From assembly GCA_937896105.1 (NCBI GenBank), contig CALBKR010000380.1:1-5995 (forward strand): 5,995 nucleotides of DNA, read 5' to 3'. The notes under the pieces are model-generated. The model was given only the letters and a program-made list of their open reading frames with translations, was not told where the DNA came from and did not search any database. Source of the stretch: an uncultured Bacteroidales bacterium (GTDB taxonomy: Bacteria; Bacteroidota; Bacteroidia; Bacteroidales; Bacteroidaceae). A program made the position numbers and the translations under genes. Shown here one piece after another: positions 4,107 through 5,969 of this stretch (the first letter of the stretch is position 1; every line of letters starts with the position of its first letter).

Positions 4107-5969
4107 ATGAAAGTAATGAAATTCGGCGGAACATCGGTTGGTTCCGTAAACAGCATATTGAACCTGAAGAGCATTGTAGAAGCCGCTGCCGCAAAGGAGC
4201 GCGTGATAGTTGTAGTGTCGGCGCTTGGCGGCATTACCGACAAACTGATAAAGACAGCCAACCTGGCTGTCAATGGCGACACGGCATTCAACAACGAGTT
4301 CCAGGAGATTGTAGAACGCCACCACGGGCTGATAGATGCTGTTATCCCCGACAACACAAGGCGTGCCGCGCTGTTGGAGGAGGTGAATATGTTGCTCAAT
4401 GAACTCAACAACATCTATCAGGGACTTGCTCTCATCAACAATATGACCCCGAAGTCGGAGGCTACCATCGTGAGCTACGGCGAGAGGATATCGAGCCGCA
4501 TTGTCACAGCACTCATCGACGGAGCCGTGCGTTTCAATGCACGCAAGTTCATAAAGACCGAGACAAAGCACAACAAATACATCCTTGCCGACGACACCAC
4601 GGAGAGACTCATACACGAAATGTTCGACGGCTGTACAGAGCAGGTTGCAGTGGTGCCGGGCTTCATTGCACAGGACAAGGAGAGCGAGGAGATAACCAAC
4701 CTCGGACGCGGCGGAAGTGACTACACAGCTGCCATAATAGCCGCAACGCTGAAGGCCGACTGCCTTGAGATTTGGACGGATGTGGACGGCTTTATGACAG
4801 CCGACCCACGCGTAATCGACAATGCATATACCATAAAGCACCTGAGCTATGTTGAGGCTACCGAGCTTTGCAACTTCGGTGCAAAGGTTGTCTACCCCCC
4901 TACCATCTACCCGGTATTCAAGTCAAACATCCCCATTAGGATAAAGAACACCTTCAACCCCGACGGAGAGGGAACCATCATCGATGCCCACAGCGAGGAT
5001 GAGGGCAGGCTCATCAAGGGTATATCGAGCATCAACGACACCGACCTGCTCACAGTGCAGGGACTTGGTATGGTGGGTGTGGTAGGTGTGAACCACCGCA
5101 TATTCCGCGCACTCGGGAATGCCGGAATCAGCGTGTTCCTCGTTGCCCAGGCTTCGTCGGAGAACAGCACCTCGATAGGCTTGCGCCACATCGATGCCGA
5201 CAAGGCGTGTGAAGTGCTGAACAAGGAGTTCGAACGAGAGATTTCAATGGGCTTGATGGAGAGCGTGCGCGCTACAAGCGAACTCTCCACCGTTGCCATT
5301 GTGGGCGAGAATATGCGCCAGAATGCAGGCATCATAGGCAAGCTGTTCCAGACACTGGGACGCAACGGCATCAACGTGATTGCCTGTGCACAAGGCGGAC
5401 AGGAGACAAACATCTCGTTTGTAATCAAGGCCGACCTGCTGCGCAAAACGCTCAATGTCATACACGACTCGTTCTTCCTTTCGGAATACAAGGTGCTGAA
5501 CCTCTTTATCTGCGGCATTGGAACTGTTGGCGGCAGCCTCATCGAACAGATTACATCGCAGCAGGAGAAGCTGAAGAAGGAGCACGGACTGAAACTGAAT
5601 ATAGTGGGCATTGCCAACAGCCGCAACGCCATCTTCGACCGCGACGGCCTCGACACCGCAAATTACAGGAGTGCACTCAAGGAGAGCACACCGAGCAGCA
5701 TCAGCAAGCTGCGCGACGACATAATAGAGATGAACATCTTTAACTCGGTATTCGTGGACTGCAAGCAGCGAGGTAGCAGCGATATATGGCGACCTGCTGT
5801 CACACAACATCAGCGTGGTGGCTGCCAACAAGATTGCGGCTTCAGGCGACTATGCCACATACAACAGCCTGAAACAGATTGCACGCCAGCGCAACATAAA
5901 GTACCTTTTCGAGACGAATGTGGGCGCTGGTCTTCCCATAATCAACACCATCAACGACCTGATAAATAG
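4107..5969 (+). CDS. thrA: Bifunctional aspartokinase / homoserine dehydrogenase, frameshifted in the dehydrogenase domain
   Basis: The aspartokinase domain (residues 1 to about 300) is intact. It has KFGGTSVG at 5-12, SYGERISSR at 123-131, GRGGSDYTA at 200-208, DVDGFMTADPRV at 225-236 and FGAKVVYP at 257-264. Two ACT-type regulatory modules follow, at about 312-390 (LTVQGLGMVGVVGVNHRIF) and 393-460 (STVAIVGENMRQNAGIIG), the usual place for threonine feedback control. The homoserine dehydrogenase Rossmann fold begins at 464 with LFICGIGTVGGSL. The frame is correct through FVDC (549-552). The remaining 68 residues to the TAG at 5967-5969 resemble nothing in the family. The true continuation is one frame over from 5761. 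Full-length ThrA is about 810-820 residues, so even a corrected gene would run beyond the window. As sequenced, phosphorylation of aspartate could persist, but the dehydrogenase would be truncated before its catalytic part. Genes for homoserine kinase and threonine synthase are commonly downstream but are not visible here. Confidence 0.93.
   Translation: MKVMKFGGTSVGSVNSILNLKSIVEAAAAKERVIVVVSALGGITDKLIKTANLAVNGDTAFNNEFQEIVERHHGLIDAVIPDNTRRAALLEEVNMLLNELNNIYQGLALINNMTPKSEATIVSYGERISSRIVTALIDGAVRFNARKFIKTETKHNKYILADDTTERLIHEMFDGCTEQVAVVPGFIAQDKESEEITNLGRGGSDYTAAIIAATLKADCLEIWTDVDGFMTADPRVIDNAYTIKHLSYVEATELCNFGAKVVYPPTIYPVFKSNIPIRIKNTFNPDGEGTIIDAHSEDEGRLIKGISSINDTDLLTVQGLGMVGVVGVNHRIFRALGNAGISVFLVAQASSENSTSIGLRHIDADKACEVLNKEFEREISMGLMESVRATSELSTVAIVGENMRQNAGIIGKLFQTLGRNGINVIACAQGGQETNISFVIKADLLRKTLNVIHDSFFLSEYKVLNLFICGIGTVGGSLIEQITSQQEKLKKEHGLKLNIVGIANSRNAIFDRDGLDTANYRSALKESTPSSISKLRDDIIEMNIFNSVFVDCKQRGSSDIWRPAVTQHQRGGCQQDCGFRRLCHIQQPETDCTPAQHKVPFRDECGRWSSHNQHHQRPDK

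Follow-up and report, generated by a model that had tools for sequence, protein, structure and literature searches.

In the window (the whole 5,995-nt stretch of DNA analysed here), thrA is very probably an ordinary bifunctional gene with one private 5-nt lesion in the middle of its NAD-binding domain, and not a conserved or programmed arrangement. The frame break is confirmed in the given sequence. The odds between a real allele of the cell lineage and an artefact of assembly are about even. All copies of the gene read in related genomes are intact, which suggests a mutation that is recent and private, or else a fault of assembly, rather than a new mechanism.

Gene content of the window

The window is itself a complete contig, as the protein search gives 5995 as the longest contig for the window's own protein. 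Four genes on the minus strand precede thrA. These encode a FAD-dependent oxidoreductase that is cut (3-647), a RadA-like ATPase (663-2030), a CAAX-type protease (2307-2924) and a UbiA-family prenyltransferase (2924-3823). The oxidoreductase, protease and prenyltransferase are assigned from the open reading frame list and Pfam. The RadA-like ATPase has Pfam matches that include AAA_25, Zn_ribbon_LapB, ChlI and Lon_C. The thrA gene, for aspartokinase-homoserine dehydrogenase, starts at an ATG at 4107 on the plus strand (open reading frame list, Pfam and NCBIfam). Two non-coding stretches of approximately 280 nt each (2031-2306 and 3824-4106) flank the protease and prenyltransferase genes. Among the best 80 of 582 loci, the closest genome-contig match to the window is L001 (92% of residues identical), from a Bacteroidaceae bacterium of the dairy cattle colon. 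Judged by relatives such as L001, the window organism is apparently an uncultured, gut-dwelling Bacteroidaceae species.

The frame break in thrA

The family-frame part of thrA spans 552 codons (4107..5762, plus strand) and contains the aspartokinase and ACT domains, followed by the first half of the NAD-binding domain of homoserine dehydrogenase. This frame reads FNSVFVDC up to codon 5760-5762 and then continues into a non-family tail of 68 codons plus a stop at 5967-5969 (5763..5969, plus strand), for a total of 620 aa. The homoserine dehydrogenase continuation lies in the next frame (5761..5994, plus strand; 78 codons). It reads ASSEVAAIYGDLLSHNISVVAANKIAAS...ETNVGAGLP, represents the remainder of the NAD-binding domain and is cut by the contig end. 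The NAD-binding profile PF03447 is divided between the two frames. Profile positions 1-65 match before the break with 20.6 bits, below the Pfam cut-off of 24, and positions 68-116 match after the break in the other frame with 25.6 bits; no single frame of the window gene contains a complete PF03447. The frameshift reported in the first-pass annotation is thus present, with the family frame ending at VDC (5762) and resuming from 5761.

The aspartokinase part is intact, as had been proposed, with matches to PF00696 (amino acid kinase, 9.8e-40) and PF22468 (1.1e-35) in the window protein. The catalytic homoserine dehydrogenase domain, PF00742, is not found in this protein, and its DNA would fall almost wholly past the contig end. 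In the intact relative P0002, PF00742 scores 160.5 bits at residues 609-804. The assignment of the gene to thrA agrees with NF006959 (bifunctional aspartate kinase/homoserine dehydrogenase I, ThrA), with which the window shares the order of aspartokinase, ACT and dehydrogenase start. The window protein (P0001) scores 617.6 bits against this family, below the curated cut-off of 726, and covers only profile positions 4-555 of 819, whereas P0002 scores 1007.5 bits. As written, the product would consist of aspartokinase, the ACT domains, half of a Rossmann domain and then 68 unrelated residues, without a homoserine dehydrogenase.

No further frame breaks are seen in the other four genes or in the pre-break part of thrA when these are aligned to six close loci. 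This comparison uses three to six loci per gene, and gap letters are limited to one or two, against L023.

Size of the deficit among relatives

The best 80 of 582 confirmed relatives from a scan of genome contigs were used, and further loci were then added from the genus to which G001, the genome that contains L001, belongs. In the best 80 of the 582 loci, the VDC codon and the Ala codon are separated by one Thr codon in a single frame in every case (80/80). In the extended set, 3 nt, always a Thr codon, lie between them in 124/124 loci, which comprise 110 distinct sequences over the 234 nt after the site. Since all 110 distinct relatives contain this one Thr codon, the window is exactly 5 nt short, as had been claimed; what is missing equals the Thr codon plus two more bases. 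The lesion site is placed at 5760..5764 (plus strand), with a placement that is ambiguous by a few bases.

The junction itself is read in 36 of the 44 genomes of this genus. Of the other eight, G014 gives no match, a contig end truncates G037, and the remaining six are not among the loci. These six contain dehydrogenase-domain open frames of 812-830 aa with no stops.

Five intact proteins (P0002-P0006; 809-810 aa) are 97-98% identical to the window protein at 89% query coverage and have FVDCTASSEVAAIYGDLL across the site. On the basis of this identity, they are probably from the same species as the window. Among the best 120 proteins listed (8000 candidates scored), 118 are 795-866 aa long, and the two short ones are the window's own protein (617 aa) and P0117 (602 aa). 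P0117, which is 81% identical and lies on a contig of 10,161 bases, apparently has its own frameshift approximately eight codons upstream of the window site, as judged from the protein only. Breaks at this end of thrA would therefore not be unique to the window.

The shifted tail (query residues 551-620) has no match other than the window's own protein among 5.77 billion proteins, in a search that needs shared exact words and would therefore miss a distant shifted copy. P0117 is picked up in the full protein search and not in the shifted-tail search. The cluster of the window protein contains two member sequences on one contig, and the second member may be another shifted record. In the literature, the titles and abstract openings listed contain nothing on this thrA lesion.

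Age of the lesion and constraint

After the break, the 78 residues of the continuation differ from P0002 at one position (by eye). Downstream nucleotide differences from near relatives fall mostly at third codon positions of the family frame: 22/26 against L090, 37/44 against L001, 32/35 against L092, 30/36 against L093, 35/46 against L003 and 32/43 against L094, where L003 and L094 encode nearly the same protein and are not independent. This bias indicates that selection acted on the old frame until very recently. In a tree built from residues 1-552 (36 rows, with seven short loci dropped), P0002 is the sister of the window (support 100/94), and the window branch, at 0.016 changes per column, is not long. 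Together, the third-position bias, the one downstream difference and the short branch argue that the lesion is either very recent or not real.

Within the 552 residues, the window has 7 private residues and P0002-P0006 have 0 to 2 each. The private residues of the window could be a hint of relaxed constraint. However, family-rare residues number 11 in the window, which is near the 7-10 of P0002-P0006 and lower than the average of 18.7 in 103 relatives.

Possible routes to the 5-nt loss

The first-pass annotation had noted that the site lacks a homopolymer, and none is present at the lesion. It had also named an 8-nt direct repeat as a sign of slippage. Two copies of AGCAGCGA do lie at 5764-5771 and 5775-5782 (plus strand), and the same sequence is present at 2797. 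As the cause of the lesion this repeat is not supported, and slippage between its copies is rejected, because their spacing is 11 and the loss is 5 nt. A short GCA repeat of period 5 would be compatible with slipped-strand loss, but one of its copies would have to come from an Ala codon that can no longer be seen. The proposed loss of one of two GCA triplets would account for the size of the deletion if that codon was GCA. TGC occurs together with a GCA codon in 13 of the 110 relatives, and in the four genomes of the window's own clade the Ala codon is GCA in three and GCC in one.

A chimera between species at the junction is judged unlikely, because P0002 matches both flanks and the identity to six near relatives is much alike before and after the site (81-86% over 300 nt upstream and 80-89% over 231 nt downstream). 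A misjoin between strains could still lie at the junction.

The homoserine pathway in the genus

The genus set contains 44 genomes (G001-G006 and G010-G047) whose completeness is not stated, so that single gene absences are unsure. A homoserine dehydrogenase domain is found in 42/44 and is single copy in 41. Among the first nine genomes checked, six of which are in the genus set, each contains one homoserine dehydrogenase (9/9). A second homoserine dehydrogenase, for which the first-pass annotation had proposed a search of the window's own genome, is thus not found in the relatives, G017 apart. In G017, two equal thrA matches on contig C60, on opposite strands and each approximately 6 kb from a contig end, look like a duplicated end. 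A similar pair is seen in G046 for threonine synthase and kinase, at approximately 51 and 214 kb of contig C59.

Threonine synthase scores over the cut-off in 15/44 genomes, and the same 15 are recovered by the domain PF14821. An ApgM-type homoserine kinase, which we infer to be equivalent to ThrB2, is present in 12/44, all within these 15. ThrB scores over the cut-off in the remaining three (G010, G012 and G038), where it lies on the same contigs as threonine synthase. In G004, the kinase and synthase genes adjoin on a 9,532-nt contig that is separate from thrA. Kinase and synthase are therefore both present in 15/44 genomes and neither is detected in 29/44, and this matched presence and absence is not easily explained by incompleteness. 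ThrB matches of any strength occur in 42/44 genomes, many of them weak and below the cut-off; unknown kinases are possible, a caution that is raised in PMC5764234. Among the weak threonine synthase matches in genomes without ThrC, the one in G030 was considered as an alternative synthase and rejected, since it is a threonine ammonia-lyase (TIGR01127, 473.8 bits; cut-off 378.75). No kinase or synthase neighbours of thrA are seen in G030 among frames of at least 150 aa.

The nine genomes nearest the window, compared over 696 nt of thrA DNA, all belong to the 29 without kinase and synthase. The four genomes of the window's supported clade (100/98) have no threonine synthase. On the thrA tree, the threonine-branch trait changes at least three times.

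The methionine branch is retained. MetA is found in all 44 genomes, with the G032 copy cut by a contig end. In 13/44 it is flagged with one in-frame stop; the three of these that were opened (G001, G029 and G003) are full-length, and the stop is their ordinary end. A MetH-type methyltransferase domain is present in 42/44. MetX (TIGR01392) is found in 0/44, but control genomes likewise fall below the cut-off. With the threonine branch mostly not found and MetA kept, homoserine probably feeds only methionine in this lineage. The threonine branch is not found in 29/44 genomes of a genus that retains dehydrogenase and MetA, which suggests separate losses of the two uses of homoserine.

Alternative explanations for the frame break

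Two readings that would leave the gene functional are considered. Programmed frameshifting or another form of recoding would join the two frames, both of which belong to the family and abut precisely at the lesion. The first-pass annotation had held that the same frame arrangement conserved in relatives would suggest recoding. Conservation of this kind, which is expected of a programmed frameshift, is found in 0 of the 110 distinct relatives; all 110 are intact, and recoding is rejected on this ground. In addition, no slip site of the familiar kinds is visible by eye, and the joined product would be without the Thr that is present in 124/124 loci. Recoding is accordingly given almost no probability. 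Equally improbable, at a vanishingly small chance, is a split into two working proteins, a kinase and a separate dehydrogenase. A frame that starts with GTG at 5815 stays open as far as the contig end and could encode the latter, but the dinucleotide-binding half of the domain (PF03447 positions 1-65) is encoded before the break, in the other frame, so that the downstream protein would be without that half.

The lesion is better described as a single small deletion that would have arisen recently, either in the cell lineage or during assembly of the short contig. Strain-level pseudogenes and frameshift errors are both known in metagenome contigs. Like these, the window has one private indel in a gene that is otherwise under selection and has intact copies at 97-98% protein identity; a loss of 5 nt with no homopolymer is less typical of long-read errors. 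An assembly or sequencing error at this site, with an intact gene in the cells, has somewhat less than an even chance. The lesion lies 233 nt from the end of the 5,995-nt contig, the shifted tail finds no other record, none of the five copies at 97-98% identity is broken, and the dehydrogenase domain is kept across the genus even where the threonine branch is gone. Against an error stand the missing homopolymer, the lack of visible frame breaks in the rest of the contig and the fit of both flanks to the same species. Furthermore, if the contig derives from short reads, a 5-nt deletion in the consensus would not be a typical error. A genuine loss-of-function allele of recent origin in one strain, which would take up methionine and threonine from its surroundings, has very nearly an even chance. 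The deletion is isolated and clean, and the clade genomes are already without a detected threonine synthase or known homoserine kinase, which leaves fewer uses for the homoserine pathway there. Predicted threonine auxotrophs also occur among human gut genomes, according to PMC9026213. This reading is weakened by the lack of a second record, although the second member of the cluster of the window protein may be one. The retention of MetA and of the MetH-type domain likewise weighs against it, as homoserine is then probably still used for methionine.

Consequences for amino acid synthesis

The first-pass annotation predicted a need for threonine and methionine. The methionine part of this prediction stands if the lesion is real, as the loss of homoserine dehydrogenase would then mainly cost the methionine route. 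The threonine part does not stand as an effect of the lesion: the nearest relatives already show neither threonine synthase nor an ApgM- or ThrB-type kinase, so a need for threonine probably predates the lesion. If real, the lesion would put a requirement for methionine on top of one for threonine that probably exists already, and would be a case of pathway decay in progress. That the homoserine pathway is being lost step by step, with kinase and synthase gone first, the dehydrogenase now broken in one strain and aspartokinase kept, is rather unlikely. Under such a loss, aspartokinase would presumably be retained for lysine and diaminopimelate.

The lesion itself, a private frameshift that affects one housekeeping gene in an uncultured bacterium, is of little general weight, and an amino acid need should not be predicted from one short contig without reads. 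More useful than the lesion is the pattern across the genus, in which the threonine branch is not found in 29/44 genomes while homoserine dehydrogenase and MetA are kept.
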